Shown here one piece after another: positions 4,745-35,948 of a stretch of 36,075 nucleotides of DNA. Source of the DNA: a virus; IMG/VR virus record IMGVR_UViG_3300046674_000366, positions 1 to 36,075 of that record; one strand, 5' to 3'. The first letter of the stretch is position 1. Each line of letters starts with the position of its first letter. A program made the translations under genes and the position numbers. The notes under the pieces were generated by a model. That model was not told the DNA's origin, did not search any database, and saw nothing but the letters and a program-made list of their open reading frames with translations.

Positions 4745-5601
4745 GCCTGCCCCCGGTCGGCAGGGTGAGGGACGGGCGCCCAGACCTGGTTGAACTCCGA
4801 GTCCTTGTGACCGGCGGCGAAGTGGTCGTGGGCGTCCTTGCCGGTGAGGGCCTGGACCACGTACACCGTGCGGGCCAGCCCGCGGAGCGACGCGACGACC
4901 AGCTCTGCGTGCTCGCGGCCCTTGGGGTCGCGGTCGGCGACGATCGTCACGTCCGCGCCTTCGAGGTACGCGGCGTGCTCAGCCACCCACTTCCCGGACC
5001 CGGCCGCGTTGCAGGTGGCCACGAGCCCGTGGTCGACGAGCGCGTGTACGTCCTTCTCGCCCTCGGCGATCCAGATGACCCGGTCCGCTTCCTTCGCGGC
5101 CAGCAACTCGGGCAGCCGGTAGGGGACGAGGGGTACGAGCCGGTTGCCCTCCTTGTCGTTGAGGGACCAACGGCGTCCGGAGCGGGTGCCGTTGTCCGGC
5201 CGCCACTGGGCGAAGCACTTGTTGTCGCAGCGGGTCACGCCGTGGACGACCGCCTTGTTCTCGTTGCGGTAGACGTACTGGGCGACCCGCTTGTGGCCGC
5301 GGTCCTGGCAAGGGATCCACGTGTCGTCTTCGGGCCTGTCGCGCGGGCGTTCGGCCAGCGGCTCGTCGAACAGGTCGGCCTCGGTCCAGCCGATCGCGGC
5401 GAGGAAGTCGGTGTTGCCGTCGCACTTGTGGCAGTGGATGACGACGCCGCCGTTGTTGCCGCGCCGAACGGCAACGGTGTCCGGGGAGTCCCCGTCGTGG
5501 CAGACACCTTGGACGCGCAGTGCGCCGCCGCTGAACCGGTGCTGAAGACCGAGGTCGCGGACGCGGTCGGCGAGCTTGTTGTAGGCGATCCCGTCGGTCA
5601 C
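4741..5601 (-). CDS. TOPRIM-domain DNA primase-like protein, 286 aa
   Basis: The N-terminal region holds a zinc-finger-like motif (GVCHDGDSP and HCHKCDG, residues 33-62), as in DnaG and phage primases. A further Cys cluster occurs at about 98-129 (PCQDRGH, RCDNKC). A TOPRIM domain follows, with the catalytic Glu in IAEGEKD (Glu180) and the acidic pair in VADRD (Asp223, Asp225). It probably makes primers for element replication. The GTG at 5601 lies six bases after GGAGGT and overlaps the TGA of the upstream gene. The stop overlaps the DUF3987 start, forming a primase/helicase-like pair. No DNA polymerase gene was seen, so the host polymerase is presumably used. Confidence 0.85.
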   Translation of the reverse strand: MTDGIAYNKLADRVRDLGLQHRFSGGALRVQGVCHDGDSPDTVAVRRGNNGGVVIHCHKCDGNTDFLAAIGWTEADLFDEPLAERPRDRPEDDTWIPCQDRGHKRVAQYVYRNENKAVVHGVTRCDNKCFAQWRPDNGTRSGRRWSLNDKEGNRLVPLVPYRLPELLAAKEADRVIWIAEGEKDVHALVDHGLVATCNAAGSGKWVAEHAAYLEGADVTIVADRDPKGREHAELVVASLRGLARTVYVVQALTGKDAHDHFAAGHKDSEFNQVWAPVPHPADRGQA

Positions 5602-5906
5602 GTGGTCACCTCCGGGAAGTAGTACGTGCCGGTCGGGAGGCCGATGCAGCGCGAGCGTCGGGGGCAGACGCGCGGTGCCGAGGCGAGGCCGGCGGAGTGG
5701 ACGTGCTGGGTGCCGCAGAACGGGCAATCGACGACGAGGAGCGCGCGCGGCTCGTCGGGTGTTTCACCTGAAACGGTGTCGCGGTAGGCGACGAGGCGGG
5801 CCGCGGCGGCGGCCATGCCGAGAGCGGACGGAGGCGACTGGATCGGCGCCTCGTCCTGCTCGGTGTCCTCCCCGAAGATCGGGAGGACGGTGGTGGTGCT
5901 GTTCAC
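5598..5906 (-). CDS. Unknown Cys-containing protein, 102 aa
   Basis: The most likely start is the GTG at 5906 (MNSTTTVLPIFGEDTEQDEA), behind a weak AGAAGAGAG site; an internal ATG is possible. The C-terminal half has a CPFCGTQHVH motif and two further Cys (RVCPRRSRC), the pattern of a small zinc ribbon. Its TGA overlaps the GTG of the primase gene, so it is probably co-translated with it. It follows a strong hairpin at 5957-5990. A nucleic-acid-binding accessory role is a guess from the zinc ribbon and its position. Confidence 0.65.
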   Translation of the reverse strand: MNSTTTVLPIFGEDTEQDEAPIQSPPSALGMAAAAARLVAYRDTVSGETPDEPRALLVVDCPFCGTQHVHSAGLASAPRVCPRRSRCIGLPTGTYYFPEVTT

Positions 5907-8168: not shown

Positions 8169-8176
8169 CGATCCTC

Positions 8177-8980
8177 ATGAAGGATGAGCGCAGTTCAACG
8201 CCAGCCAACGAACCCGATCTGGATGCGGACGCCCTACGTGTGGCGTTGGGTCGCCGCATGAGGATGGCGAGGGTGAACCTAGGTCTCTCTCAACAGGCCG
8301 TAGCTGACGCGATGATGGGGCGCGGCTTCAGTTGGCGGCAGACCACGGTGGCCAAGACAGAGGCGGCCGATAGGCCGGCCCTTTTCACGGAAGTCGTGGC
8401 ACTCTCATCGATTCTGAAGCGGGAGCTGAGCTATTTCCTAAGCGGGCGGACTGCGCTAGACGAGGTGAAGGAGGAGTTGCAACAACAGACGAACGATCTG
8501 AAGCATCAGATGGACCACGCAAAGAGTCAGCTCGCCTACATCGAATCGAATCTAGCGAAAGCTGTCGTGGTTGAGGGGGTCATGCTGGCCATCGTTGAAT
8601 TCTCTTACACGCTGGACACGTCACGGCTAAAGCAATCTTTCGAGGCTTTCTCGCAAAGCCGTGCGTTCGATGTTCCTTCGCTGAAGCGCGTGCTTGATGC
8701 CGCAGGAGTACCAGCCCACCAGGTAGAAGAGGTGGATCAGATGGGGCTGACTCATGCGGCCCGAGAGGTAAAGGAGAAGGGGGTGACGGGCCCGAGCGAG
8801 TGGTTGCCGGGGTTCGGAGATAAGGAGATTCCTCTTTCGGCGGCGCACTACCTGGAAACAGGAAAGTCTCCTACCTACTTTCTCGACTACCTGCGTCGCC
8901 GTGAGACATACGTGAACACTGTGTGTCCGCTGCTAGTCGACGACGTCATCGACTGGGTCGAATCGAGGAATCATCCTTGA
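8177..8980 (+). CDS. XRE-family helix-turn-helix regulator, probable lysogeny repressor, 267 aa
   Basis: An XRE/Cro HTH domain occupies about residues 15-80 (LGRRMRMARVNLGLSQQAVA, then a Q-T-T-V-A-K-TE recognition helix). A charged coiled-coil (about 95-130, VKEELQQQTNDLKHQMDHAK) and a C-terminal domain of unknown type follow. The gene is visibly less GC-rich than its neighbours, a common sign of separately acquired immunity genes. It is divergent from the excisionase-like early gene, and its last ten bases overlap the end of the convergent integrase gene. The usual role would be to repress the early promoter and maintain lysogeny. The ATG at 8177 is chosen for the leaderless arrangement; an upstream GTG at 8153 is possible. 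Confidence 0.85.
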   Translation: MKDERSSTPANEPDLDADALRVALGRRMRMARVNLGLSQQAVADAMMGRGFSWRQTTVAKTEAADRPALFTEVVALSSILKRELSYFLSGRTALDEVKEELQQQTNDLKHQMDHAKSQLAYIESNLAKAVVVEGVMLAIVEFSYTLDTSRLKQSFEAFSQSRAFDVPSLKRVLDAAGVPAHQVEEVDQMGLTHAAREVKEKGVTGPSEWLPGFGDKEIPLSAAHYLETGKSPTYFLDYLRRRETYVNTVCPLLVDDVIDWVESRNHP

Positions 8981-10482
8981 GTGCTGCGCCTTTTCCATGC
9001 GAAATGCACAGCGTCGTAGTCGAAGTACCCGCCGTCGGGCATGCGCCCCGACCGCGGCTTGACCAGCGTGACGACGAGCGCCGCCCGCAGCACGTTGCGC
9101 TTCTGCTCCAGCAGCAACGCCTTCCACGCCTTCCGCACATCCGGCGCGCCGACCAGGCCGACGAGCGGGTCCACCATCGCCGCACGCGCCAACTGGTGCG
9201 TCACCCCGTCGAGCTGCGCGCGGGCCGTCTCCATGCCCTCGGTGAACGGGCCCAGCTCCAACTGGCCCGCACCGAACAGACCGGCCAGGTCGGTCATCCG
9301 CCGGCGGATCCGCTCGCTCTCCGCCTGCAACCCGGCAACGTCCACGTCGTCCGGACCGGGCAGCAACAGGTCCTCCGCGTCGTCGCGTGACAGCCGCTCG
9401 ACGATCGTGTCCTCGACGTACTGGTCGACGACCTCGGCCCGCCGCCCGCCGCCGTGCCCGGTCGGACACTTGTAGCTCGGGTACTGCCGGCCACCGGACT
9501 GGGTCACCGTCATGCCCTGACCGCAGTCCCGGCCGCACAGGTACAGCAGCGAGCCCACCCACTTCGGCTGGGCCCCGCGGTTCGAGGTACGTGACGGGTC
9601 GGACAGGATCGCCACAACGGCCCTGAACTTCTCCTCCGGGACGATCGGCGCCCACTGTCCGGGCCCGACCTCCTCGCCCCTGTAGACCGCGATCCCGGCG
9701 TTCCTCGGGCGCTTCAGCATGTCCCGCAGATCCTGGTGGGTGATCGCGTTCCCGCGGGTGGTGGTGAGCCCCTTGTCCGTGCACCACTTCACGCAGCTGC
9801 GGATGGACCCGCCGGACAGGATGGTGTCCGTCCACTGCCGCAGCGCCTCGGCCTCCTCGGGCACGACCTTGTTCGTGTCGAGGACGGGCACCTCGAGTTC
9901 CTCGCCGGTCGCCCGGTCGACCCGCTTCTGCGTCTCCCCGGTGGGTACGCCCCAGCCGAACGGGCGGGTGCCGCCCGCCCATTCGCCGGCCATGGCCTTC
10001 TGCTGCCGGGCGCGGGCGACGCGGTGGCCCTTGTGCTCGGACTCCTGGCGGGCGACGGCGCCGAGGATCCGCGCGGTCATCCGCCCGGACGGCGTGGCGA
10101 GGTCGACGGTCCCGGCCTGCACGGTGTGCGTGGCGATGCCGCGGCGCTCGGACAGGGCGATGTACTTCTCCAGCTCCGTCGGGCTGCGGTGGAGCCGGTC
10201 GGTGTGCCAGGTGATGACGATGGTGGCGGTGCCCTGCTCCAGGTCGTCGAGCATGCGCAGGTAGTCCTTGCGCTTCTTGCCGCTGTAGGCGGACACGTCG
10301 TTGTCGACGTACACCTCGACGACGTTCCAGCCGTTGCGTTCTGCGAGGGCTTCGCAGTCCTGGCGCTGTCGCTCGACGCCGAGGCCGGCGCCGGTGCGGT
10401 CCTGGCTGATGCGGCAGTAGATGACGGCGCGGGTCTTGGTGCCTGCGGCAACGTCGACGGCGGCGCGGAGAGTTGGGCTCAT
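8971..10482 (-). CDS. int: Large serine recombinase (integrase), 503 aa
   Basis: The N-terminal resolvase domain (about 18-165) contains RAVIYCRISQD, whose Ser26 is the expected nucleophile, and further core motifs VERQRQDCEALAERNGW, VDNDVSAYSGKKR and TWHTDRLHRSP. A recombinase domain follows (SIRSCVKWCTDKGLTTTRGN, RPRNAGIAVYRGEE). Next come a zinc ribbon (CGRDCGQG and YKCPTGHGGGRR) and a coiled-coil end, the architecture of phiC31-type integrases. It should join attP to a host attB without supercoiling and, with a directionality factor, reverse this. The ATG at 10482 lacks an obvious ribosome site; a GTG five codons upstream is an alternative. Its 3' end overlaps the convergent repressor gene by ten bases. 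Confidence 0.93.
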   Translation of the reverse strand: MSPTLRAAVDVAAGTKTRAVIYCRISQDRTGAGLGVERQRQDCEALAERNGWNVVEVYVDNDVSAYSGKKRKDYLRMLDDLEQGTATIVITWHTDRLHRSPTELEKYIALSERRGIATHTVQAGTVDLATPSGRMTARILGAVARQESEHKGHRVARARQQKAMAGEWAGGTRPFGWGVPTGETQKRVDRATGEELEVPVLDTNKVVPEEAEALRQWTDTILSGGSIRSCVKWCTDKGLTTTRGNAITHQDLRDMLKRPRNAGIAVYRGEEVGPGQWAPIVPEEKFRAVVAILSDPSRTSNRGAQPKWVGSLLYLCGRDCGQGMTVTQSGGRQYPSYKCPTGHGGGRRAEVVDQYVEDTIVERLSRDDAEDLLLPGPDDVDVAGLQAESERIRRRMTDLAGLFGAGQLELGPFTEGMETARAQLDGVTHQLARAAMVDPLVGLVGAPDVRKAWKALLLEQKRNVLRAALVVTLVKPRSGRMPDGGYFDYDAVHFAWKRRSTQG

Positions 10483-10674
10483 GCTCTGAGTCTGCACCCG
10501 TAGTGGTGTCACTGTCTCAGGTTCGGGAACCCCAATATGGCTTCGTGCCACCACTGGAAAGATCTTGCTCGAAAGGGTGGGCATTGGTGCCCACCCATGC
10601 CCTTGACCTGCGCTTATGTCGCCGATTTCCACAGCCTGTGGGCACGCCTTCGAATCCAAGGTTGGGTGCAAAAC
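10483..10674. other. Integrase upstream region, candidate attP location
   Basis: In large serine integrase phages attP usually lies next to the integrase gene. The 3' side here is closed by the repressor overlap, so this non-coding stretch is the best candidate. It holds a perfect dyad at 10575-10596 and is not disrupted by host DNA. The exact crossover dinucleotide cannot be read from the sequence alone. Confidence 0.4.
10575..10596. repeat. Perfect inverted repeat upstream of the integrase
   Basis: GGGTGGGCA (10575-10583) and TGCCCACCC (10588-10596) flank TTGG. It could be an operator, part of attP, or a second hairpin downstream of the terminator at 10675-10706. Confidence 0.6.
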
Positions 10675-10706
10675 GGCCCCGGCCGGATCGGCGTCCGGCC
10701 GGGGCC
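10675..10706 (-). terminator. Strong GC hairpin terminator
   Basis: GGCCCCGGCCGGA (10675-10687) and TCCGGCCGGGGCC (10694-10706) are perfect 13-base arms around a six-base loop. It follows the stop of the 46-aa gene at 10752 and separates that group from the integrase. Confidence 0.8.
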
Positions 10707-10751
10707 TGGTCCCGCCCGCCCCCAATGGGCACGGGGTACGGGGCGGGCGGT

Positions 10752-12159: not shown

Positions 12160-12927
12160 TCACTTCGTTTCGAGCGCGGTGACGCGCTTCTCCAGGGCGG
12201 TGAGCCGCTGGTCGGTGGTGAGTGGCGGCGTCGGTATCGGGCCCGGGATCGGGGCGGGGAGAGTGACCGGCTTCGACCACGAAGCCGGGTGCGTCAGCCG
12301 CTCGGCGACGTCCGCCCGGAACTGCGTGCCCGTGTAGGCGAATTTGCCGCGGGTGCCGTATCCCTCAACCGGGCCGAGCGGGTCGACCTTGCACTCGATC
12401 GAGGTCTCCTTGTGGCAGCCGCACGACTCCGCCGACCAGCCGTACTCCCGGCAGAACGCGGCGTTGATCCGCACCCACGCGTCGTACTGCGCCCGCGTGT
12501 AGACGTCGCTGCCGTTGCCGAGGTTCTCCGTCTCGATGCCGTAGGCCACGTCGTTGCCGTCGATCGTGCCCGAGCTCTTGGCCGGAGCCGGGTGCGTGGA
12601 CTCCTCGTCGAGGAACGACTCGTAGGCGTTGCGCGCCATCAGCCCAGCGTGGTTCGCCCGGCCCGCACTGCACAGCGTGGCCAGCCCGGACTTCGCCAGG
12701 TGGATGTGAGCGAGCGGGCCGGGCAGTCCGGCGACGCCGTCCTTGGCGACGACCGCGAGCGAGTCGCGGCCTGCCGTGTGGTGGTTGAGGACCATGTGGA
12801 CCGGGCCGAACGTCTTGCCGGTCTCGTCGTCCCGTCCGCGGGTGCGCCAGCCCGGGTACTCGGCGACCTTGACGCCCTCGGACTTGAGTATCGCGAGCAG
12901 CCGGTCCGGTGTCAGTGGTGCGGCCAT
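12160..12927 (-). CDS. Endolysin, N-acetylmuramoyl-L-alanine amidase, 255 aa
   Basis: This is an Amidase_2/PGRP-type zinc amidase, which cuts the bond between the glycan sugar and the stem peptide of peptidoglycan. Zinc-ligand motif VLNHHTAG lies at about residues 46-53; the fold continues through LAHIHLAKSGLATLCSAGRA, VAYGIETENLG and a late Cys-His stretch (SCGCHKETS). The C-terminus has a Pro-rich linker (PIPGPIPTPPL) and a short heptad segment (TTDQRLTALEKRVTALETK) instead of a recognisable cell-wall-binding domain. The latter may oligomerise. It is followed by the holin-like pair, making a compact lysis cassette. Confidence 0.9.
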   Translation of the reverse strand: MAAPLTPDRLLAILKSEGVKVAEYPGWRTRGRDDETGKTFGPVHMVLNHHTAGRDSLAVVAKDGVAGLPGPLAHIHLAKSGLATLCSAGRANHAGLMARNAYESFLDEESTHPAPAKSSGTIDGNDVAYGIETENLGNGSDVYTRAQYDAWVRINAAFCREYGWSAESCGCHKETSIECKVDPLGPVEGYGTRGKFAYTGTQFRADVAERLTHPASWSKPVTLPAPIPGPIPTPPLTTDQRLTALEKRVTALETK

Positions 12928-16901: not shown

Positions 16902-19900
16902 TCACCCCCCGACACTCAGTCGCACGGTCGCGCCCTGCGAGCGGCCGAACTGGACGAGAACACGCTGGATTTCGCGGCCGACGGCGACCGGGTCCATCGC
17001 CTGCTCGACGACGACGTTCACGTTGTAGACGACGCCGCCACCGGCGCCCGCCACGGCTGGGCGGCCGAGGACGGGCCGGGTTCCGGCGACCCGTCCGGAC
17101 ACCACGTCGAGTGCCCGGTCGAGGTGAGGCACCGCGTCGACCAGGCCGCGCGCGAGGCCCTGCGTGGAGTAGCGGCCGAGCTGCGCCATCACGGTCGACG
17201 GGGACTTGATGCCGAGGGCCTTCTTGATCGCGGCCTGCATGCCCTTGGCGATGGACATCATCAGCTTCTCGATGTCCTTCTGCTGGCCCTCCAGCCCCTT
17301 CAGGAATCCCTTCCCAGCGTTCTTGCCCGAGTCGTACAGGGCGTCTGCGCCCTTGCGGCCCAGCTTCTCGGCCGACTCGTTGATGGCGTACTGCGTCTTG
17401 TTGATCGAGGCGAACGTCTTCTTGTCCGCCCCCGCGAGCGCGGACGCGTAGGCGTATCCCTGCTCGGGGCCCATGTCGAGGATCTCGCGCAGCATGGTCT
17501 TGTTGAGGCCGCGCTTCGCCAGCGTCCCGATGAAGGTGCTGAACTGCTTCATCTTCGCCAGCTTCGCCTGCAGCCGGGCGGTGATCCCGCCCGCGCTGAC
17601 CGTCTCCTCGTTCTCGAAGAGACTGCCGAGGCTGGCTGACCGCTTCGCCCCGACCCGGGTGGACTCGGCGTAGGCCTTCGCGGTGGCGATCTTCTTTTCG
17701 AGGGCGTCCCTCTGCTTGGCCGCCGCGAGGAGCTTGCTCGTCTCCCGGTTGACGTAGGCCACCAGCCGGTTGTCCTTGGACCCGGAGAAGGCCGACCAGA
17801 TGTCCGCGGCCAGATCCTTGGCCGTCGCCTTGATCTTGTCCCGGGAGCCGGTCAGGCCCACGATCAGGCCCCTGCCCGCGTCCGCCGCGAGCGCCTTCGT
17901 CTTCTTGCTCGGGCTGGCGATCTCCAGCTCGCCGCGGATCCCGACGAGAACAGCCTGCGCCATCTTCCGGGCCGCGCCCTCGACGAGGCCGCCGCTGCCG
18001 GACATGCCGGAAGCCAGGCCCTTCGCGACGTCCATGCCCGCGCCGGGCATGCCACCACCACCGAGGCGGTCGGAGTTGATCGCCTCGATCAGCCCCCGGT
18101 GCTTCGCGGTCGACTTGGCATTGACGACGTACTCGCCGGTCGACGCCCACCACATCGGGATGGAGTCCGACCTTCCCGTGCCCGGTCCGTTCAGGAGACC
18201 GGTGGGCATCCCGCCGCCCGCGAACCCGGGCGCCGGCCCGCCGCGGGCACGGAACGTGGGCGACGCGTGGGAGTCCACGTGCTGCGTGCGGACCGTGGTG
18301 AGCGCAACCCGCCCGTTGAGATTGTTCAGCATCCGCTCGACGAGCGAGAGTTTCCCGCTCGCCTGGTCCGAGACCTTCACGGCCGCAGCCCGCTTCTGCT
18401 TCAGCGAGTCGAGGCGGGCCTGAGCCCGGCTGACCTCCGCGTCCAGCTGCTGCTTCTGCGCGCCGACCGCGACCTTGCGCTTCTGCTTCAGCGTGTCGAG
18501 CTCATGCTGCGCGGTAGTGATCTCGTTGGACAGCGGGGCGGAGTCGCCGTGGAACTGGACATCGGGCATGCCGCCCGCCGCGACCGAGTAGGCATCGAGC
18601 TGATCGAGGACACCGTCGAACGAACCGTCCGCGCTCTCGCGGAACTTGTGGAACTTGTCGGCCGCCCTCTGGATCTCGTCGCCGACTCCCGGGAGCGCGC
18701 TGGCCGCTTCCGCGGCGCCCGTCATGAGGACGTCGATGCCGCTCATGGCCGAGTCGAAGATCCCGGCCATGGCCATCACGATGAACTTGACCTGCCCGAT
18801 CACCATCAGCGCGGTGGCCTGCACCGCAACAGTCACGACGGCGCGGAACTTCTCGCTCTTCTGATAGGCGGTGACGAGTGCGAACCCGAGTGCCGCCCCG
18901 GCCGCGGCCGCAAGAATCAACGGATTCGCGTCGAGGATGAACAGGGCAGCCGAGACCCCCATCGTGGCGACCTTCACGGCGAGCAGGCTCGCGGCGATCG
19001 CCGCGATCACGTCCGGCGGCATCCACTGGATGAACTTCGCGAAGCCTTCCGCGATCTCGATGGACGTACCGATCAGAGGGCGCAGCGCGTCGTACAGGTC
19101 CAGGGCGGCCAGGGCCAGATTCTCCAGTGAGCCCTGCCCCTCGCCCGCGATGTCCATGAACCGCTTGAAGCCGTCCGAGTCGCCGAGGCCCTGGCCCCAC
19201 TTCGCGAACGCGGCGCTGCCTTTCTGGAGTCCGCCGGTGAACCGGTCGGACGTGGGCAGGAACGCGGAGATGATTCCGCCGAGCCCGACGAACACGTTGC
19301 GCCCGGTGGCGAGCAGATCCGGAAGGGTCTTCTTCGCCGCCGAGTTGAGTCGGTCGATGAACCCCTTGAGGCCGTTCCCGTCGAGGCCGTCCATGAAGTC
19401 GGACAGGGCACCGGCTGTCGTCCGCACCAGCGGCGTCAGCAGAGGCAAAGCCTTACGCGCACCCTCGATCCCCTTGGTGAAGATCGGCATGGTGTCGTCG
19501 GAGAGAGAGTCGGACCACTTCGCGTAGTCGCTCTTCAGACCGACGAACGCCTTGGCCGTCTCCCTCGTCTTCGGCGGCAGATCGGCCAGGGCTTTGCTGT
19601 ATGCCTTGTTCGCGGCGGCCGCCTTCTTGCCACCCTCGGCCTGCGCATCCTGTGCCGCCGCGTAGAGTTCCGCGGCCGCGGTCACCTTGGTCAGCTGAGG
19701 CTTCACCGCGGCACCGAACGCGCCGGCCGCCGCGCCCGCCGAAGCGAACGCGGCCGTCATGGCGCCCGCTCCGGCGATGATGGTCGCCGCCATGGGGCCG
19801 CCGCCGAGCTGGCCCGCGATGGCCAGCTTGGTCAGCTTCTTCTCCAGGTCCCCGGCGGAATCGCCGGCCCGGTCCATGACCCGGGACAGCCGGTCGCGGC

Positions 19901-19934
19901 CCTCGAGGATGAACGTCATGCGGGAGCTACTCAC
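16902..19934 (-). CDS. Tail tape measure protein, 1010 aa
   Basis: It is the longest gene of the window. The N-terminal part has alternating helical and small-residue hydrophobic runs (ATIIAGAGAMTAAFASAGAA). Central hydrophobic segments (about 310-410: WMPPDVIAAIAASLLAVKVA and VVTVAVQATALMVIGQVKF) follow, then a helical repeat region and a C-terminus with IASPSKKT and IKSPSTVMAQLGRYSTQGLA, the short Ser-Pro-Ser motifs common in tape measures. Known role: sets tail length and passes through the tail tube at DNA ejection. It lies directly after the frameshifted tail chaperones, as is standard. The GTG at 19934 follows AGGAGG and overlaps the end of the frameshift product. Confidence 0.93.
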   Translation of the reverse strand: MSSSRMTFILEGRDRLSRVMDRAGDSAGDLEKKLTKLAIAGQLGGGPMAATIIAGAGAMTAAFASAGAAAGAFGAAVKPQLTKVTAAAELYAAAQDAQAEGGKKAAAANKAYSKALADLPPKTRETAKAFVGLKSDYAKWSDSLSDDTMPIFTKGIEGARKALPLLTPLVRTTAGALSDFMDGLDGNGLKGFIDRLNSAAKKTLPDLLATGRNVFVGLGGIISAFLPTSDRFTGGLQKGSAAFAKWGQGLGDSDGFKRFMDIAGEGQGSLENLALAALDLYDALRPLIGTSIEIAEGFAKFIQWMPPDVIAAIAASLLAVKVATMGVSAALFILDANPLILAAAAGAALGFALVTAYQKSEKFRAVVTVAVQATALMVIGQVKFIVMAMAGIFDSAMSGIDVLMTGAAEAASALPGVGDEIQRAADKFHKFRESADGSFDGVLDQLDAYSVAAGGMPDVQFHGDSAPLSNEITTAQHELDTLKQKRKVAVGAQKQQLDAEVSRAQARLDSLKQKRAAAVKVSDQASGKLSLVERMLNNLNGRVALTTVRTQHVDSHASPTFRARGGPAPGFAGGGMPTGLLNGPGTGRSDSIPMWWASTGEYVVNAKSTAKHRGLIEAINSDRLGGGGMPGAGMDVAKGLASGMSGSGGLVEGAARKMAQAVLVGIRGELEIASPSKKTKALAADAGRGLIVGLTGSRDKIKATAKDLAADIWSAFSGSKDNRLVAYVNRETSKLLAAAKQRDALEKKIATAKAYAESTRVGAKRSASLGSLFENEETVSAGGITARLQAKLAKMKQFSTFIGTLAKRGLNKTMLREILDMGPEQGYAYASALAGADKKTFASINKTQYAINESAEKLGRKGADALYDSGKNAGKGFLKGLEGQQKDIEKLMMSIAKGMQAAIKKALGIKSPSTVMAQLGRYSTQGLARGLVDAVPHLDRALDVVSGRVAGTRPVLGRPAVAGAGGGVVYNVNVVVEQAMDPVAVGREIQRVLVQFGRSQGATVRLSVGG

Positions 19935-30155: not shown

Positions 30156-30356
30156 TCAAGCGGACTGGGGCGAGGCGCGCCGGGCGACGAGAGCGGCGAC
30201 GTCCTGCACGGCGTACCAGGGCTGTCGCTCGGTGCCGCCGGAGCGGGAGAGCTGGCCTCGCTGGACGAGCTTGCGGACGGCCGGGAGGCCGACGCCGAGG
30301 GTGCGGGCGGTCTGGTGGGCGGTGAGGTGGCCGGGCCGGATGAGCTGTGACTCCAT
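30156..30356 (-). CDS. Small helix-turn-helix DNA-binding protein, 66 aa
   Basis: The product (MESQLIRPGHLTAHQTARTL, GVGLPAVRKLVQRGQLSRSG, then QPWYAVQDVAALVARRA) fits the helix-turn-helix/MerR-like or excisionase-like group, with a two-helix HTH, a turn and a short wing with WYAVQDV. It lies 13 bases after the DUF6221-like gene. No strong ribosome site is present, so it may be translated by coupling. It could regulate late or transfer genes; this is inferred only from the fold. Confidence 0.75.
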   Translation of the reverse strand: MESQLIRPGHLTAHQTARTLGVGLPAVRKLVQRGQLSRSGGTERQPWYAVQDVAALVARRASPQSA

Positions 30357-30369
30357 GCCCCCATGATGT

Positions 30370-30783
30370 CTACGGCCGCCACTCCTCGCGGTATCCGGGC
30401 CTGTCCGCGTAGGGCATGGCGAGCAGGCGCATCACGTCTTCCAGCGCGCCTTGCTCGACGCGGGCCGCCCGTCGGTTCTCCGCGCTCACTGGGTTCCTTA
30501 CCTGTGCTCGGACGTCTTCGTGTTGGCGCAGTACGCGGCGCTTCGCTTCGATCTCGCGCAGCACCCTGGCCGGATCATGCTCGGCGATGAACGCGGCCTG
30601 CTCCACGGTCGGGTAACCCTCGTCGTAAGCCACGTGATAGCCGTCATGATCACCTGAGACGTGAGCACCATTCTCATCCCCGTGGTGGTGCCATCGCCCT
30701 TCCGCGCCCTCGCGAGCCGCCAGTGCGATCCGCTCGTCCTCGTCGAGCTGCTCGCCGAGCCACCGCACCAGGTCTTCCGTCAT
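30370..30783 (-). CDS. DUF6221-like protein, 137 aa
   Basis: The start MTEDLVRWLGEQLDEDERIA followed by a His-rich region (WHHHGDENG, HVAYDEG) and HDPARVLREIEAKRRVLRQH matches the DUF6221 family common in Streptomyces and its mobile elements. The HDPARVLREIEAKR stretch is the clearest signature. The function of the family is unknown. The ATG at 30783 is preceded by GAGAGGA. It is first in a two-gene unit, after the tra terminator and repeats. Confidence 0.82.
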   Translation of the reverse strand: MTEDLVRWLGEQLDEDERIALAAREGAEGRWHHHGDENGAHVSGDHDGYHVAYDEGYPTVEQAAFIAEHDPARVLREIEAKRRVLRQHEDVRAQVRNPVSAENRRAARVEQGALEDVMRLLAMPYADRPGYREEWRP

Positions 30784-30870
30784 GGGGTCATCCTCTCGCA
30801 GTGGTGTCAGCCGCGGGCACAGTCTCGGGAGCCGGTTCCGGGGCGATCTGGGCCGCTCGTGGAGGGGCCC

Positions 30871-30956
30871 GAAACTCGAAACTTCGCAGGTGGGGTCCGA
30901 TATCGGGGGCGAAACCGGTTTCGGATCAAGGCGAAACCACGGGCTTGATCCGAAAC
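30871..30956. repeat. CGAAAC repeat cluster downstream of the translocase gene
   Basis: CGAAAC occurs at 30871-30876, 30878-30883, 30910-30915, 30932-30937 and 30951-30956, with one inverted copy at 30918-30923. TraB-type translocases of Streptomyces plasmids recognise short direct repeats (the clt locus) near tra, so this cluster is a candidate. The match to a known clt word was not established. Confidence 0.5.
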
Positions 30957-30959
30957 CGG
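30915..30959 (-). terminator. 16-bp perfect inverted repeat after the translocase gene
   Basis: CCGGTTTCGGATCAAG (30915-30930) and CTTGATCCGAAACCGG (30944-30959) pair perfectly around a 13-base loop, ending 11 bases from the tra stop. It could be the tra terminator, an operator or part of a transfer site. Confidence 0.75.
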
Positions 30960-30969
30960 GTTGAGGGCT

Positions 30970-33066
30970 CTACTCGGCGTCTTCTGCGGCGGGCAGATCG
31001 GCGTACCGGAGGCCCTTGGCGCCGCCGCAGCACTCCCGGATGGTGAGCTGCCGGGTGGACACCTTGTGGGGCTTCAGGGCGGCGGACAGGGCCGTGGACG
31101 CTCCGGCGGCGTCCAGCTCGGTCCACGGCCGGTACAGGTCGGCCCGGTACGCGGCGAGGGCCTCGACGAGCCGGTGCGAGTGGACGGTCTCGACTCCGTC
31201 GGGCCAGATGGCCCGCAGGTGGTCGAGGACCGTCTCGACGTCCTGCTCTTCGACCCGGGCGCCGACGGCCTGCCCGGTGAGGGTGCCGGCCGCGGTGCGC
31301 AGCGCCAGGGCGCGCTTGCCGATGTCCTCGGCCTCGGTCTGCTTGATGAACGCGGCGCGGACGGTGATGCCTTCGCGGCCGCGGGCGAGGATGCCGGTGC
31401 CCTGCTCGTCGATGCTGATGTCGGTGGCCCGGAGGCCGCGGTCGTAGGCGCCGGTGCCGAGCACGTTGTTGTTGGCGCGCCAGTCCATGACGGCGAGGCA
31501 CAGGCGGGTGCCGACGGAGCTGGAGACCGAGCTGGGCAGGCTCGGGGCGTCGGGGTTCTGGGTGAGCAGGATGAGGATGAGGCCGTAGGCGCGGCCCTTC
31601 TTGATGAGGCGGGTCGCGAGGGCGCTGGCCTCGTCCTTGTAGTCGGCGTGGGTGAACAGCTCCTGCACCTCGTCGATGACGATGACGCGCGGGCCGAGCT
31701 GCTGCTCCGGGTACTTCTCGGCGAGCGCCCGGGTGACGCGCCGGCCGTCGGGGACCTCGGAGGCGGGCAGTCCCTTGATGAACTTGGCGCGCCGCTGGTA
31801 CTCGGCGATCCCGGAGCGCATCCCGGCGAGGGCGGCCTCCAGGTCCTCGTCCTCGTCGCCGGACACGTACCGGTGGCAGACGGGCTTGACCGAGTCGAGG
31901 TCGCCAGAGCCCTTGAGTTCGTAGATCCACAGCTCGGCGGTGACGTCGAGGGCGACGCCGAGGACGATGGCGAGCGCGCACGACGTCTTGCCGGAGCCGG
32001 GGATGCCGCCGACGAGCAGGTTCGAGTACATGAGGGTGACCTCGATGAGGTTGCCGCGCGGGTCGAAGCCGTAGGGCAGCGGCTCGTACACGTCGGCCTG
32101 ACCGCCCTTCATGAGCGGCCACAGCCTCCGGTCGGCCTTGGCCGGGTCCCGCTGGGCGACCCACAGCACGAGACGCCCGGGGTGGGCGGTGCGGTCGGCC
32201 GAGGGCCACACGGTGCTGATGGGGCGGCGCATGGCGGCGGCGAGCGCGGCCCGTTTCTCCAGGACGGCGGTGGCCTCGACACCGGGCGGCAGGTCGACCT
32301 CGGCGCGCCAGCCGGGCCCGTCGCGCATCACCTCGGAGGCGAACTCCACGCCCTTGCGGCCCTTCCTGCCCTCGATGCCGATCGCGGCGAGCGCGTCGAA
32401 CACCTCGGTGGAGTCGAGGCGGCGGAGCACGTTGGTGGCGACGTAGCGGGTGATGAGCGCCTTGTCGCCCTTCTTGCCGTTCAGTCCGGCCAGGGCGGCG
32501 GCGCCGATGTAGGCGGTGAGCGTCCAGCCGGGTACGAGGAACGTGCTGACGAGGGTGGTGATGCCGGTGGCGGTGGCGACGGCGATGGAGGCGACGCGGC
32601 GGGGCCGGACGCGGCGGGAGTGCTCGCGGGACAGGGACAGCCACGCTTCGATGTCGGCGGACGCGGCGGCCTTGGCCTCGACGGGTCGGGCCTCGGTGTC
32701 GGCGACCCAGCGGCCCCAGCGGACGATGAGCCGGCCGGTGCCGCGAGGGGCGCGCAGGAGCAGCCGCCCGAAGTAGACGGGGGCGCGGAGGGCATGGAAG
32801 CCGGCGACGTGTCCGTAGTAGGACGCGGTCCAGCGGACGGAGTTCGTGAAGGCGTCCCAGCGGCGGAGGGCCGGGGGGACGATGGGCGGGGCCTCGGCGA
32901 GGTAGGCCTGGCGTTCGGCGATCCATGTGCCGTCGGCGGCGGGCTCGGGGCGGTCGACGGGACGCGGCTCGGCGTTCTGGATGATGTCGAGGACGGTCTG
33001 CCGGACGCCAGCGTCCTCGGCGTCCTGAGGGGCGTCCTGTAGCGGCTTGATCAGGCTGTCGGTCAT
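30970..33066 (-). CDS. FtsK/SpoIIIE-type (TraB/TraSA-like) DNA translocase, 698 aa
   Basis: A hydrophobic region at about residues 158-195 (RVASIAVATATGITTLVSTF) likely anchors it in the membrane. The motor domain has Walker A GGIPGSGKTS (353-362), Walker B VIVIDEVQEL (461-470), an LTQNPD sensor-like stretch and LKGSGDL. The C-terminal 90 residues (LDHLRAIWPDGVETVHSHRL, ALKPHKVSTRQLTIRECCGG) resemble a winged-helix DNA-reading domain. In actinobacterial plasmids and AICEs such proteins alone move double-stranded DNA between hyphae. It is coupled by position to SpdB-like membrane genes. A true role in transfer, rather than phage DNA handling, is inferred from this context. Confidence 0.88.
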   Translation of the reverse strand: MTDSLIKPLQDAPQDAEDAGVRQTVLDIIQNAEPRPVDRPEPAADGTWIAERQAYLAEAPPIVPPALRRWDAFTNSVRWTASYYGHVAGFHALRAPVYFGRLLLRAPRGTGRLIVRWGRWVADTEARPVEAKAAASADIEAWLSLSREHSRRVRPRRVASIAVATATGITTLVSTFLVPGWTLTAYIGAAALAGLNGKKGDKALITRYVATNVLRRLDSTEVFDALAAIGIEGRKGRKGVEFASEVMRDGPGWRAEVDLPPGVEATAVLEKRAALAAAMRRPISTVWPSADRTAHPGRLVLWVAQRDPAKADRRLWPLMKGGQADVYEPLPYGFDPRGNLIEVTLMYSNLLVGGIPGSGKTSCALAIVLGVALDVTAELWIYELKGSGDLDSVKPVCHRYVSGDEDEDLEAALAGMRSGIAEYQRRAKFIKGLPASEVPDGRRVTRALAEKYPEQQLGPRVIVIDEVQELFTHADYKDEASALATRLIKKGRAYGLILILLTQNPDAPSLPSSVSSSVGTRLCLAVMDWRANNNVLGTGAYDRGLRATDISIDEQGTGILARGREGITVRAAFIKQTEAEDIGKRALALRTAAGTLTGQAVGARVEEQDVETVLDHLRAIWPDGVETVHSHRLVEALAAYRADLYRPWTELDAAGASTALSAALKPHKVSTRQLTIRECCGGAKGLRYADLPAAEDAE

Positions 33067-33151
33067 GCTGGTGGCTCCGGTTGCTCGATGGGCGGTCCGG
33101 GGCCCGGGGACGGCGACGGCTTGCAGGCAGGACGCCGTCCCCGGGGCGGTG

Positions 33152-33337
33152 CTACTTGCGGCGTGCGGCGTCCTTGGCGTCCTCGCGCTTCTGCGCGTCC
33201 TCGCGGATCCGCTCGACGCGGTTCTCCAGGGCCTTGACGGGCTTGCCGCGGGCCTGACGGCGTTCGATGCGGACGCCGAGGAGGATCACGGCGGCCAACT
33301 CGCGGGCGTTGTGCGGGTCCTTGTCGGTGAGCGCCAT
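33152..33337 (-). CDS. Small charged helical protein, 61 aa
   Basis: The product starts MALTDKDPHNARELAAVILL, continues GVRIERRQARGKPVKALENR and ends with a charged Lys/Arg/Glu helix. The ATG at 33337 follows GGAGG and lies against the previous stop. It sits between the transfer membrane genes and the translocase. No family is recognised. A tiny DNA-binding or adaptor role is possible from its charge. Confidence 0.65.
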   Translation of the reverse strand: MALTDKDPHNARELAAVILLGVRIERRQARGKPVKALENRVERIREDAQKREDAKDAARRK

Positions 33338-33338
33338 G

Positions 33339-33545
33339 TCAGGCCTCCGGGGTGGTGTCGTCGGGCAGGGCCTGGGCGACGGCGGCGTCCGCGACGGCGA
33401 TCGATGCCCACAGGGCGCCGGCGGCGGCGAGCGGCTCCGCCCTCTGCCAGCCGTCGCCCCGGGCCGCGGACTCGGCCTCGCGGGCGAGGGTGGTGGCGCG
33501 GTCGATGGCGGCGTCCGCCATCTTCAGGCGCTTGTCTCGGTTCAC
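33339..33545 (-). CDS. Small helical protein, 68 aa
   Basis: The GTG at 33545 (MNRDKRLKMADAAIDRATTL) follows AGGAGG; the longer open frame upstream is Pro/Ser-rich shadow sequence. The protein is Ala-rich and helical, without membrane segments (AREAESAARGDGWQRAEPLA; AAGALWASIAVADAAVAQAL). It lies in the SpdB-like gene group. Function unknown. Confidence 0.65.
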   Translation of the reverse strand: MNRDKRLKMADAAIDRATTLAREAESAARGDGWQRAEPLAAAGALWASIAVADAAVAQALPDDTTPEA

Positions 33546-33558
33546 GGGTTCCTCCTGT

Positions 33559-33858
33559 TCAGCGGTGCTTTTGGATGTCGCTCCAGATGGAGCGGAGGAC
33601 GAGGGCGAGGATCGCGACGGACACGGCGCCGATGGCGACGGCGATGGCGAACAGGGAGGCGACCAGGCCCCCGGCGATGCCGAGGCCACCGATGGTCAGC
33701 CACTTCCGGGCGTCGAACTCCTGCCGGGCCTGCTGCGGGGCGGGCGTCTGCTCCGCGGTGGCCTTCTGCACGGCGAGGATTGCGGTGATCGTCCGCATCA
33801 GCTCGGTGTTGTCGGCAGCCTCGACGGCGTCCCGGGCCGCCTTCTCGATGTCGCTCAC
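33559..33858 (-). CDS. Membrane protein of the transfer cluster, 99 aa
   Basis: The GTG at 33858 (MSDIEKAARDAVEAADNTEL) overlaps the upstream stop by four bases. A cytoplasmic helical half precedes one long or two short membrane segments (WLTIGGLGIAGGLVASLFAI, AVAIGAVSVAILALVL), then a basic end. It is coupled to the larger SpdB-like gene and probably works with it in the membrane during transfer. Confidence 0.7.
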   Translation of the reverse strand: MSDIEKAARDAVEAADNTELMRTITAILAVQKATAEQTPAPQQARQEFDARKWLTIGGLGIAGGLVASLFAIAVAIGAVSVAILALVLRSIWSDIQKHR

Positions 33859-34802
33859 GGGTTGCCCCCGCCCGGCCCGGCCAGTGCCTTCTCCCGGTCG
33901 TACAGGGCGTCGATGGTGTCCCATGCCCCGGTCAGACCTTGGGCGTTCATCTCGGCCCGCATCGCCGCACGGAACTGCCGCTTCGAGGGCGGCGGGTCGG
34001 TGGCGTACAGCTCGGCGGCGAGCATCGCTACCGCCTTGCTGTTCGCCGTCCGCGGCCCCTCCAGCGGGGGCGTGCCAGAACCGTGACCGCCCTGCGTGAC
34101 CGCCAGGCTTGAACCCCCCGTGCCACCTGCGGTTTCGTCGTCCGGCACACCCCCCGCGAGGAGGGCCTGCAACTCGGTGTCGGAGACCAGGGCGGGAAGG
34201 TCGGTGTGCCAGTCCGGCAAGGGGTGCTCGTCCACGATCTCCGCGTACCGCTCGAACGCGTCGTGGGTGGTCGTGATGGCCTCGGCTTCCGCCTCCCGGG
34301 ACGCCTTCACGATGTCCGCGGCAGCGAGGGTCTCGTCGGCCCGTGCCGCGGCCACGGCACGGGAGACGGCGATGCGGTCACGCGTGATGGCACGGGTTCG
34401 GTCGATGGCGGCCTGCGCCCGCGCGCTGATCCGGGTGCGCTCCCGGTCGATCGCCATGACGAGCGTCGTCTTCGCGAGGACGGGGATCAGGGCGCCGACC
34501 GCCGCGGCGAGAGCGTCTCCGGCGAGCGCCCCGTGCACGGCGAGGACCGCAACGGTGAGGGGCAGGAACACCCACCCGATGACCTTGGGGAGTCGGGCAC
34601 TGGATCCCTGCCGGCGGTGCGCGGTCTCCTGCGCGAGGGCGTACAGCCAGACGGCGTCGTAGAGGACGGCGACGGAGTAGGCGAACGCGGGGTGGGCGGT
34701 CGCGGTGAGGATGCTGCCGATCGCGGCGACGGCCCACACGACCGCGACGGCGGTAAGGATGGCGGGCAGCAGCCAGGGCGCTGCCTTCCTGACGTGGTTC
34801 AC
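33855..34802 (-). CDS. SpdB-like multi-pass membrane protein, 315 aa
   Basis: Four membrane segments are seen in the first 120 residues (PWLLPAILTAVAVVWAVAAI; AFAYSVAVLYDAVWLYALA; VIGWVFLPLTVAVLAVHGAL; ALAAAVGALIPVLAKTTLVM). A charged coiled-coil follows (about 118-180, RERTRISARAQAAIDRTRAI), then a cytoplasmic tail with a helical end (SKAVAMLAAELYATDPPPSK). This is the layout of SpdB proteins of Streptomyces plasmids and AICEs, needed for spreading transferred DNA along the mycelium. The GTG at 34802 follows GAGAGGA and overlaps the previous TGA. It is an unexpected cargo for a phage genome. Confidence 0.78.
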   Translation of the reverse strand: MNHVRKAAPWLLPAILTAVAVVWAVAAIGSILTATAHPAFAYSVAVLYDAVWLYALAQETAHRRQGSSARLPKVIGWVFLPLTVAVLAVHGALAGDALAAAVGALIPVLAKTTLVMAIDRERTRISARAQAAIDRTRAITRDRIAVSRAVAAARADETLAAADIVKASREAEAEAITTTHDAFERYAEIVDEHPLPDWHTDLPALVSDTELQALLAGGVPDDETAGGTGGSSLAVTQGGHGSGTPPLEGPRTANSKAVAMLAAELYATDPPPSKRQFRAAMRAEMNAQGLTGAWDTIDALYDREKALAGPGGGNP

Positions 34803-35050
34803 GGGGTGTCCTCTCGGAACGACGCGTAGTCGCCGGGCGGGTAGACGTAGTTACTGAGGGCGCCCTCGGCGGCGACGGCCGCAGCGCCGAGGGTGGCGAC
34901 GACCGCAGCGGTGCCGGCATGCCCGTGCTGCGCGGCTGCCTGCGCCGTTACGGCAGCGAGCTGGGTGGCGCGGCGGGCGGAGGCGGGGGAGCCGTCGGGC
35001 GTGTTCATCGCGGAGTACAGGGCGTCGCGGGCCCGGTCGCGGAAGCTCAC
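34799..35050 (-). CDS. Unknown small Ala-rich protein, 83 aa
   Basis: The product starts MSFRDRARDALYSAMNTPDG and has an Ala-rich central helix (AVTAQAAAQHGHAGTAAVVA, TLGAAAVAAEGALS). That helix may be weakly membrane-associated. The GTG overlaps the upstream stop and the TGA overlaps the SpdB-like start, so it is co-translated with the transfer genes. Function unknown. Confidence 0.65.
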   Translation of the reverse strand: MSFRDRARDALYSAMNTPDGSPASARRATQLAAVTAQAAAQHGHAGTAAVVATLGAAAVAAEGALSNYVYPPGDYASFREDTP

Positions 35051-35421
35051 TGGCCACCGTCCCGGAGCGCGTCGAGCTGGTCGGCGAGGCCGCGGAGCCG
35101 ATCGGCGTACCGGTCGAGGTCAGCGGCCAGGCTGTACAGCTCGGTGGCGTCGAGGGTCTGGCCGAGCGGGTAGACAGAGACGCCGGGCGCCCGGCCGCCG
35201 AGGTGCCTGTCGGAGGACTCGGCGTAGGGGGACTGGACGAGCTCGGCGGCGAGCAGCGTGCGGCCGAGGTAGAGGCACTCGACGACGGGGCCGGCGTGGA
35301 TGAGGTCGACGCGCTGGGTCTCGGGGTCGTGGTGGGCGTGGCCCGCGCACCACGTGGGCTCGGGCAGGGCGACCGGGCCGTGGTCGGCGGTGGTCAGGGT
35401 GACGGTGCGCAGCTCGGTCAC
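35047..35421 (-). CDS. DUF6907-like protein, 124 aa
   Basis: The product (MTELRTVTLTTADHGPVALP, then EPTWCAGHAHHDPETQRVDL) has the TWCxxHxHHD motif that I associate with DUF6907, a family frequent in Streptomyces and its elements. The second half (HLGGRAPGVSVYPLGQTLDA; LYSLAADLDRYADRLRGLAD) is beta then helix. The family function is unknown; the Cys-His cluster could bind metal. It is coupled to genes on both sides. Confidence 0.75.
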   Translation of the reverse strand: MTELRTVTLTTADHGPVALPEPTWCAGHAHHDPETQRVDLIHAGPVVECLYLGRTLLAAELVQSPYAESSDRHLGGRAPGVSVYPLGQTLDATELYSLAADLDRYADRLRGLADQLDALRDGGQ

Positions 35422-35756
35422 TGGTCCTCCCCTGCGGGGAGCGCGACGGCCTCGGCCCAGGTCTTGCCCTCGTTGAGGGCGGCGTCCGCCTGGTCGACGG
35501 TGACGTAGCCGGTGACGGGGTGCTGGGCGAGACGGTCGCGCAGGTAGCGGGCGTCCCAGGCGGGGCCCATGGCGGGGCTGAGCTCGGCGTCATCGAGCGT
35601 GCTGCGCAGCGCGAGGCGGGCGTACATGACGCGGTCGTTGAGGAGCCGGTCGTGGGCGTCCTGGCCGCCGTAGGTGGCGGGGTGCGGGATGTTGATCGCT
35701 TCGAGGACGGCGGCGAGGAGGTCGCGCACCGGCTCGGGGATGTCGATGTTGGTCAC
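35418..35756 (-). CDS. Unknown protein, 112 aa
   Basis: The GTG at 35756 (MTNIDIPEPVRDLLAAVLEA) overlaps the previous TGA by four bases. The C-terminal part (GPAWDARYLRDRLAQHPVTG; YVTVDQADAALNEGKTWAEA) is helical. A diverged partial copy starts at 94 and runs off the left end of the window. No family or function is recognised. Confidence 0.7.
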   Translation of the reverse strand: MTNIDIPEPVRDLLAAVLEAINIPHPATYGGQDAHDRLLNDRVMYARLALRSTLDDAELSPAMGPAWDARYLRDRLAQHPVTGYVTVDQADAALNEGKTWAEAVALPAGEDQ

Positions 35757-35911: not shown

Positions 35912-35948
35912 GGCCGGTCCTCCTGGTTGAGTCAGGGGGTTCTGGTCT

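Follow-up and report, generated by a model that had tools for sequence, protein, structure and literature searches.

The stretch of viral DNA analyzed here (the window; 36,075 nucleotides) carries, within a temperate siphovirus genome, what its sequence suggests is a TraB/AICE-type module for the transfer of double-stranded DNA. It comprises a Tra-type motor, a candidate loading site directly behind the motor gene, and an SpdB homolog with other small genes upstream (Table 1). The likely main role of this module is to transfer DNA among hyphae or to spread it inside them, and the region probably serves the transfer of the prophage from one mycelium to another. The phage belongs to a family of temperate Streptomyces viruses that possess a plasmid-style pump along with its apparent DNA tag and so may spread both as particles and by direct DNA transfer. 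The original prediction of an FtsK/TraB-type motor with a winged helix, placed beside SpdB-like genes in a siphovirus, was borne out by an intact reading frame, a PF01580 match, the modeled fold, and the virion genes on the contig. It gave no strand for the genes, which lie on the minus strand, and overlooked the repeat element behind the motor gene.

Table 1. Features of the window, with the evidence for each assignment
Feature	Positions	Strand	Basis or remarks
DUF3987 replicative helicase	3179..4744	minus	PF13148 9e-85
DNA primase	4741..5727	minus	phrog_6088 2e-21; Toprim match below Pfam cut-off
Serine integrase	8971..10725	minus	phrog_95 6e-98; PF00239/PF07508
Endolysin	12160..12927	minus	phrog_880 5e-42
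Tape measure protein	16902..19934	minus	same scan as the endolysin
Major capsid protein	23605..24819	minus	phrog_10 7e-83
Portal protein	25582..26727	minus	phrog_12 3e-72
Terminase large subunit	26741..28270	minus	phrog_9 7e-75
Terminase small subunit family	28711..29148	minus	phrog_4581 3e-36
MerR-like HTH protein	30156..30356	minus	phrog_2474; in relatives often the next gene past the element
DUF6221 protein past the element	30370..30783	minus	E 8e-32; absent from some relatives
clt-like repeat element, 6 GTTTCG/CGAAAC sites	about 30865..30960	minus	starts ~10 nt past the motor stop; central palindrome CGAAACCGGTTTCG
Tra-type translocase for DNA (698 aa) with N-terminal helices, a motor of the FtsK fold (Walker A GIPGSGKT), and a winged helix at the C terminus	30970..33066	minus	ORF, Pfam, PHROG, tree, structure model
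Conserved gene (61 aa) immediately upstream of the motor	33152..33337	minus	retained in L047 and L048 despite motor replacement
Small conserved gene upstream of the motor	33339..33689	minus	43-65% identity in several type-A loci; likely start near 33545
Small membrane protein, one predicted membrane helix	33559..33924	minus	ORF list, hydropathy, relatives; likely start 33858, giving 99 aa
SpdB homolog, 315 aa, 3 predicted membrane helices	33855..34802	minus	pIJ101 SpdB, E 1e-6
83-aa small protein, module start	34799..35050	minus	ORF list, hydropathy scan
DUF6907 protein	35047..35421	minus	E 7e-26

The window represents a circularly permuted temperate siphovirus of ∼35.6 kb, in which virion, packaging, lysis, and serine-integrase genes share a contig with the motor. 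Its end is joined to its start in a second viral contig (L005/L054; IMGVR_UViG_3300046459_000567; 99-100% identity) from the same or another sample, and we infer that the DNA is circular or concatemeric. Measured against the marks of an AICE, namely a site-specific integrase and the absence of virion genes, the window has the former (of the serine type) but does carry virion genes, which are the mark of a phage-plasmid. No partition family was detected among the window proteins scanned against Pfam, NCBIfam, and PHROG, and a Pfam analysis of 10 window proteins, covering DUF3631 and Prim-Pol, detected no AICE replication module. The DUF3987 helicase showed a 32% match to a replication protein of the NBC_00562 plasmid.

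The motor is encoded by a single intact open reading frame, and its product matches PF01580 (FtsK_SpoIIIE) with 28.7 bits, just over the Pfam cut-off of 24. Its structure model (mean pLDDT of 79) resembles the folds of FtsK and of the conjugation protein TcpA, and includes a winged helix consisting of (i) helices 613-620, 630-640, 642-649, and 653-667 and (ii) a hairpin, 672-675/682-687. Toward the N terminus, a hydropathy scan returned a single weak window (160-178), and the model contains long helices (139-177 and 181-195); the same scan returned none in the TraB protein of pSVH1. Judging from dN/dS ratios of 0.15-0.46 (12 pairs), the motor is under purifying selection. Within a 32-protein BLAST set, it matched the TraB proteins of pSG5 (E 5e-39) and pSVH1 (E 4e-33), and a phylogenetic tree placed it with these two proteins and AICE-like Tra proteins with support of 100/99, subject to long-branch warnings. 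The S. scabiei FtsK, EccC, and the translocase of phage Gilgamesh fell outside this clade; grouping with a housekeeping FtsK or with a phage-only clade, either of which the original prediction would have taken as speaking against it, was not what the tree returned. The Tra protein of pIJ101, a proven transfer motor, was placed on the FtsK side of the tree and not with the motor's clade. Two sequences were omitted from the tree, namely scab_L233 (the same protein as L232) and scab_L235 (which lacks the Walker A motif).

The repeat element contains six of the nine GTTTCG/CGAAAC sites in the entire window, a clustering that none of 2000 shuffles reproduced, and at least three such sites are present in 64 of 65 type-A loci; the locus L065 has a type-A motor without the element. 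Repeats near a tra gene, as expected for a clt, were found for the window, the type-A loci, the AICE-like loci, and pSVH1. In pSVH1, for which we confirmed the repeat consensus GACCCGGA, five of the seven repeats occupy the corresponding position, 16 nt downstream of the traB stop codon, the first and second being spaced by 22 bp; in the AICE-like relatives, dyads lie at about +12 and +34, likewise 22 bp apart. TraB-type winged helices read 8-bp repeats, according to two reports (PMC3583192, PMC4170104). Further, in the type-B viral loci (L046-L049) the motor and the element have been swapped jointly, while their flanks are conserved. Because the element shares its position with the pSVH1 repeats, a wing residue predicts the repeat class among relatives (see below), and type-B loci show co-replacement, recognition of the element by the motor, in the manner of TraB and clt, is very likely, and such a clt-like site strengthens the case for a transfer module. 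The element was also compared with the sps palindrome of SpdA2; it is not the same site, since the sps sequence, CGTCACGTGACG, differs.

The correspondence between wing and repeat was examined in AICE-like motor families, where 134 of 136 loci contained a parseable dyad (L093 and L148 were excluded for an unparsed dyad, L003 and the type-B loci by design). An imperfect dyad is visible in L093. Dyad classes were grouped from their sequences ahead of the column scan, though not blind. Across the 97 motors of family C and the 26 of family D, wing column 892 tracked dyad class with a normalized mutual information (MI) of 1.00; this three-class result for 123 motors excludes the TCTA (7) and TCGA (4) classes. 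The value remained 1.00 after redundancy removal (86 C, 20 D), the maxima of 300 label shuffles being 0.36 and 0.70. The wing threonine is common to the TCTA and ACGT classes, and a one-residue code is therefore perfect for three classes only. Dyad class changed at least 19 times on a tree made without the winged helix, and independent pairs for GGTC agreed in 8/8 cases (p 0.008), with residue sets that were picked after the data had been seen. Nucleotides between the stop codon and the first dyad scored only 0.03-0.47, which disfavors hitchhiking as the cause of the association; the association returned at a distal site ∼90 nt past the stop (family C, 0.49-0.62; family D, 0.30-0.41), and nucleotides separating the two dyads reached 0.62 in the small family D. 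Other winged-helix columns were also associated, namely 880 and 885 in family C (0.74-0.76) and 883 in family D (1.00); given these columns and the inter-dyad signal, column 892 is the best marker and not a proven contact. Families C and D share near-identical wing segments, and recombination of adjacent blocks may be the route by which classes move. Gene content was checked in three of the AICE-like loci, of which L096 and L092 fit an AICE, whereas L100 (family D) has an integrase and an HTH gene, with no replication family found, so that family D is AICE-like on weaker grounds. Type A has a single element class, and column 892 is a gap in 60/60 aligned motors (five motors <600 aa were left out of this alignment); the evidence for the code thus comes from the AICE-like families, and its extension to the phage relies on homology.

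The SpdB-like assignment in the original prediction also holds by sequence, as the product of 33855-34802 is homologous to the characterized SpdB of pIJ101 in an hmmsearch among 1153 ORFs, while nothing in Pfam or NCBIfam scored above cut-off. This SpdB family occurs in only 5 of the 58 type-A loci that have sufficient upstream sequence. A crude search without a chance control, which carries no weight, found upstream ORFs with at least three hydrophobic stretches in 60/101 loci.

Several other explanations of the motor and the element deserve weighing. The nearest non-phage kin of the motor are AICE-like genes, which would fit a chance AICE insertion or a chimeric assembly joining a phage to an AICE. 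Against this, the motor occurs in 45 viral loci, of which 37 have a terminase and 38 a terminase or capsid gene in the same record (the seven records with neither are all contigs of ≤20.4 kb), and it is under purifying selection; moreover, a chimera is unlikely because the second contig, concordant with the window, bridges the window ends and because the complete S. scabiei 87.22 chromosome has the motor in a prophage next to virion genes of the same types (L071, L223). We regard this explanation as extremely improbable. A phage-specific role, in which the motor aids genome entry, packaging, or host takeover, is suggested by its match to phrog_1358 (5e-28; PHROG label 'moron, host takeover') and by FtsK-like proteins in other phages (Gilgamesh; BFVD matches). 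However, the phage encodes its own terminase, Gilgamesh lies outside the clade, two relatives (L096, L092) have AICE gene sets, and tblastn with window proteins detected no terminase, portal, or capsid gene in 20-kb stretches around motor relatives with the same site type (L088, L091, L096, L100), all of which makes such a role very unlikely; a similar stretch around another motor relative, L097, gave a partial tape-measure match.

It is likewise highly doubtful that the element serves some other protein as operator, terminator, or iteron and is tied to the motor through physical linkage. The element is intergenic and close to the last codons of the motor gene, and the near-identical C and D wing segments hint at block recombination, as such linkage would have it; yet the association is low from stop to dyad and comes back at the distal site, the MerR-like gene behind the element is retained in L046 and L047 though the repeats differ, and in type-A loci the repeats stay constant while the next gene varies. 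A more serious alternative, still unlikely, is maintenance, in which the motor and the element move or segregate the excised prophage within one mycelium (across septa or into spores) and to no other strain. FtsK-like motors do segregate DNA in their hosts. One report (PMC4170104) further describes Spd proteins as acting in spread within the mycelium, and SpdA2 together with sps, its site, as having an effect on stability and not on transfer. The nearest characterized motors with a site at the same place are, however, transfer proteins, and two loci with a canonical set of AICE genes (L096, L092) have the same type of motor and element. AICEs are known to transfer between mycelia.

In the transfer reading that we prefer, excision would yield circular prophage DNA, and the winged helix of the motor would bind the element as a putative clt. 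A motor hexamer at the membrane would then pump the DNA into an adjoining hypha, SpdB and the small membrane proteins would aid its spread across septa within the recipient mycelium, and the serine integrase would insert the transferred DNA, with virions providing a second route of spread. Speaking against this reading are the complete lack of a phrog_9 terminase in 8 of 21 genomes with type-A motors, the small share of type-A loci that have the SpdB family of the window, the type-A locus L065 with its missing element, the placement of pIJ101 Tra outside the clade, the negative Pfam result for AICE replication families, and the limits of the wing code noted above. We tentatively propose, as a possibility still short of even odds, that motor and element form an exchangeable specificity cassette common to phages and AICEs, in which a code of wing residue and dyad center sets which motor moves which integrated element; many Streptomyces prophages might then have a virion-free second route, with co-mobilization by elements of the same class. 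A phage that brought along both a conjugation-type pump and the site to load it would make transduction and conjugation harder to tell apart in the bacteria from which many antibiotics come. The motor-site code predicts clt-like sites for >100 AICE-like loci, and with it the standing question of whether the Tra protein of one element moves another becomes directly testable.

The earlier view that this combination looks unusual was too strong, as dozens of viral contigs have it and pZL12 is in print; a transfer-capable Streptomyces phage-plasmid was, by the title of that report, already known, as the original prediction had allowed. Among the matches listed in a literature search on tra genes of phages and prophages in Streptomyces, with a coverage that leaves out most subscription journals, there was no report of the same combination. 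Precedents thus exist in pZL12 and in two Pseudonocardia plasmids, and what is new is the breadth of the distribution, the cognate site, and the wing code.

Among known systems, the TraB-clt pairs of pSVH1 and pSG5 resemble the phage module in their FtsK-type motor, in repeats directly behind the motor gene, and in an SpdB2 protein or homolog encoded upstream. They differ in that (i) their repeats are GACCCGGA where the phage has GTTTCG, (ii) their motors are ∼30% identical to that of the phage over some 350 residues, and (iii) their Spd protein is of the SpdB2 kind, whereas the phage SpdB is of the pIJ101 kind and is accompanied by virion genes. AICEs with Prim-Pol replication contain the closest non-phage sisters of the motor (about 36-43% identity), a dyad element at the same position, and a spread-type DUF2637 gene upstream; L096 and L092 combine Prim-Pol and a DUF3631 or D5-type protein with a tyrosine integrase, whereas the phage, besides its virion genes, has a serine integrase, a different primase, and a DUF3987 helicase. 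The Pseudonocardia plasmids pPaSha2 (CP052773) and NZ_CP053567 each unite virion genes, a DUF2637 gene, and this motor class (40% and 30% identical to the phage motor) on one circular plasmid, with CCTGACC repeats behind one motor and, directly after the other, a small gene and no such cluster; unlike the phage, both are plasmid records. The plasmid-phage pZL12 of Streptomyces is about 90 kb in size. By its title, the report on it (Zhong 2010) describes replication, transfer, and a plasmid/lytic phage cycle in one element, and pZL12 differs in carrying ParA and ParB. Finally, as described in PMC3583192, TraA of pWTY27 (688 aa, two membrane helices) footprints direct and inverted repeats in a clt composed of the last 16 bp of traA and 159 bp downstream; it resembles the phage module in motor size and in a repeat-bearing clt at the motor gene, and differs in residing on a plasmid and in its TGACACC repeats.

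The termini of the window, a 36,075-base IMG/VR record, overlap (5-439 versus 35,667-36,075 at 83% identity, with approximately the last 127 bases identical), and another viral contig, 20,428 bases long, spans the end/start junction at 99-100% identity; the source was therefore a unit of ∼35.6 kb, present as circular or concatemeric DNA. Approximately positions 1-310 are a diverged version of the window's own opposite end, probably contributed by another strain where the contig terminates. The window encodes virion and lysis proteins (terminase, portal, capsid, tape measure, tail, and endolysin), as well as a serine integrase, primase, DUF3987 helicase, and SSB.

Positions of the putative transfer-related features in the window and in the compared loci
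Feature	Record	Position	Strand	Content
Putative transfer module	window	ahead of packaging genes	(-)	DUF6907, 83-aa protein, SpdB homolog, small genes, motor, element, DUF6221, MerR-like protein
SpdB homolog	window	33855-34802		
Motor	window	30970-33066	(-)	698-aa Tra-type DNA translocase
Element	window	~30865-30960		clt-like repeats
Repeat cluster	pSVH1	8158-8256		five copies
Type-B block	L046	2546-4732		motor and element swapped as a block; incoming motor 30% identical, different repeats
Type-B block	L047	10061-12268		as L046
Type-B block	L048	from 10056		as L046
Type-B block	L049			as L046
DUF2637 proteins	L085; L086	8186-9040; 10439-11389		
Region compared with the motor slot	L228	24874-31062		
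Motor and repeats	L227	14290-16690		

The motor product contains an FtsK_SpoIIIE domain, and a profile search matched it to FtsK as well as to the 6o1x DNA translocase coupling protein. A structural model (mean pLDDT 79) predicts an FtsK motor fold, closest to DNA-bound FtsK and next to TcpA of pCW3, with a C-terminal winged helix in which helix 653-667 would take the recognition-helix position and residues 672-687 would form the wing. A tree built on the ATPase region, which has several long branches and drew a program warning of false joins, grouped the window motor with AICE-like Tra proteins (100/100), with TraB of pSVH1 and pSG5 joining farther out (100/99), in keeping with the Tra affinity put forward in the original prediction. 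S. scabiei FtsK and EccC fell outside this clade, as did phage Gilgamesh and pIJ101 Tra. Twelve pairwise dN/dS values for the motor ranged from 0.15 to 0.46.

An HMM of the SpdB homolog matched pIJ101 SpdB at 1e-6 (among 1153 ORFs) and placed the same family upstream of nine compared motor loci, five of them type A (window-like motors), including the window's relative L005. Some other motor loci have DUF2637 proteins at that position, which is consistent with the high variability of spd genes described in PMC4170104. In L085 and L086, the DUF2637 spread-type proteins encoded upstream of the motor have a MerR-like helix-turn-helix at the C terminus.

Directly 3' of the motor stop lies a conserved noncoding stretch with GTTTCG/CGAAAC repeats. 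The whole window has nine such sites and six of them fall here, a number reached in 0 of 2000 shuffles. At least three sites fall within the first 150 nt after the stop in 64 of 65 type-A loci (some being the same isolate from two collections), versus 0.02 per 150 nt elsewhere in these loci. L065 (Streptomyces actuosus), with an 86%-identity type-A motor, has no repeat sites and has other sequence past the stop, from ∼12112 onward. Type-B loci, which encode distant viral motors, contain TAGAGGGG-type repeats at the same position, and AICE-like loci contain GCTA-NNNN-TAGC dyads, usually at +12 and +34. In our positive control, pSVH1, the first of five GACCCGGA/TCCGGGTC copies lies 16 nt past the traB stop, the initial two are 22 bp apart, and two further copies occur elsewhere on the plasmid; PMC5133688 gives GACCCGGA as the TraB recognition sequence, and PMC3583192 describes a footprinted clt of pWTY27 that likewise adjoins traA. 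A box like GACCTGCG or CCACCTGCGGAAAC was seen by eye ∼100-160 nt past the motor stop in pSVH1 and pSG5 (L224, L225) and in many AICE-like loci.

The motor occurs in 45 distinct viral loci, 41 type A (64-100% identity) and four type B (∼30%). Terminase was found in 37 of these records, capsid in 24, and either in 38; the remaining seven are contigs of ≤20.4 kb. The window's own terminase matched in 23 of the 45 (33-96% identity) and its integrase in 10, two of them weak and partial, and therefore a single motor type resides on many phage backbones. Motor relatives (E ≤1e-45) were present in 149 of 392 Streptomyces-genus genomes, with identities from 88% to ∼30% among the matches listed; nine genomes had full-length type-A motors (52-88%), and three had fragments. 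As for whether type A belongs to phages only, a phrog_9 terminase was present in 13 of 21 genomes with type-A motors and, as read from coordinates, within ∼25 kb of the motor in nine; the other 12 had no phrog_9 terminase near the motor, so phage-only status is not proven.

The type-B blocks are flanked by phage sequence common to type-A phages. Between L046 and the type-A phage L014, similarity extends up to the first motor codons, is absent over motor and element, and returns ∼170 nt past the stop; L047 breaks and resumes likewise against the window, L048 shares the upstream break with similarity returning farther downstream, and L049, probably the same phage as L046, repeats its pattern. 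Motor and site were exchanged jointly.

Sequence covariation in AICE-like relatives and the joint exchange of motor and site in type B make it very likely that the motor reads its adjacent element. A parseable dyad was present in 134 of 136 AICE-like loci, and alignment column 892, in the wing, showed normalized mutual information of 1.00 with the three classes of dyad center (the central 4 nt) in both 97 family-C and 26 family-D motors. For ACGT, column 892 is V in 29 family-C motors, with one T and one I, and T in four family-D motors, with one P; for CCGG, it is R in 16/16 family-C and Q in 14/14 family-D motors; and for GGTC, it is G in 56/57 and K in one. Beyond these classes, TCGA pairs with F (4/4) and TCTA with T (7/7), so T is not exclusive to ACGT. 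After redundancy removal (86 C and 20 D motors), the value remained 1.00, against maxima of 0.36 and 0.70 in 300 label shuffles. Nucleotides between the stop and the first dyad scored 0.03-0.47 in the two families, and for inter-dyad nucleotides the maximum was 0.31 for family C and 0.62 for family D; the dyad arms are nearly invariant. Further winged-helix columns were associated with class, column 883 fully so in family D. On a tree of 107 motors built without the winged helix, dyad class changed at least 19 times, and independent pairs on supported branches agreed in 8/8 cases for GGTC (p = 0.008), ∼7/8 for ACGT (median p = 0.016), and 4/4 for CCGG (p = 0.125). We propose that helix 653-667 may read the constant arms and the wing the center.

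The window is an integrating temperate phage with an FtsK-fold motor, an adjacent site whose counterparts covary with the motor in relatives, and a SpdB homolog. The idea that a phage with a TraB-type motor and SpdB-like genes might spread by both virions and mycelial transfer is supported, and sharpened by the TraB/AICE Tra clade, the SpdB homolog, and the clt-like site, from which we infer transfer itself. In the most likely mechanism, the winged helix would load the excised circle at the element, the motor would pump double-stranded DNA into the adjacent hypha, and Spd proteins would aid spread, followed by integration of the transferred element; virions would provide the other route.

Among the AICE-like relatives, L096 and L092 share the order DUF2637, Tra, element, Prim-Pol, replication protein (DUF3631 and D5-type, respectively), and tyrosine integrase, which agrees with the AICE modules listed in PMC3218068; the L096 integrase has SAM-like and central domains above cut-off and the catalytic family below it. 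In the family-D locus L100, an integrase was found and no replication family. The transfer part of these AICEs is common to the window phage, whereas the Prim-Pol/DUF3631 or D5-type replication part is not; the phage helicase matches, at 32%, replication proteins encoded on the NBC_00562 plasmid and in L091. The 36.7-kb circular plasmid NZ_CP108470 (L228) encodes a terminase with 65% identity to that of the window, together with annotated HNH and DUF6221 genes in similar order. No motor is among its annotations; a tyrosine integrase and ParA take the expected motor position and may be a different maintenance module occupying that slot. A deposited phage-AICE hybrid is the circular Pseudonocardia plasmid NZ_CP053567 (L227): alongside capsid, terminase, Prim-Pol, and DUF2637, it encodes an FtsK-type motor, and the 160 nt that follow the motor contain seven CCTGACC sites. 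It is one of two deposited Pseudonocardia plasmids, the other being pPaSha2, that carry virion genes and the window's motor class. The title of Zhong 2010, as cited in PMC4487206, ascribes to the Streptomyces plasmid-phage pZL12 both replication and transfer along with a lytic phage cycle. Our literature search found no report of how broadly the motor occurs among integrating siphoviruses, of a clt-like site there, of joint motor-site replacement, or of the wing code; within that literature, these four are new, and a plasmid-phage with transfer (pZL12) and the Pseudonocardia plasmids were already known.
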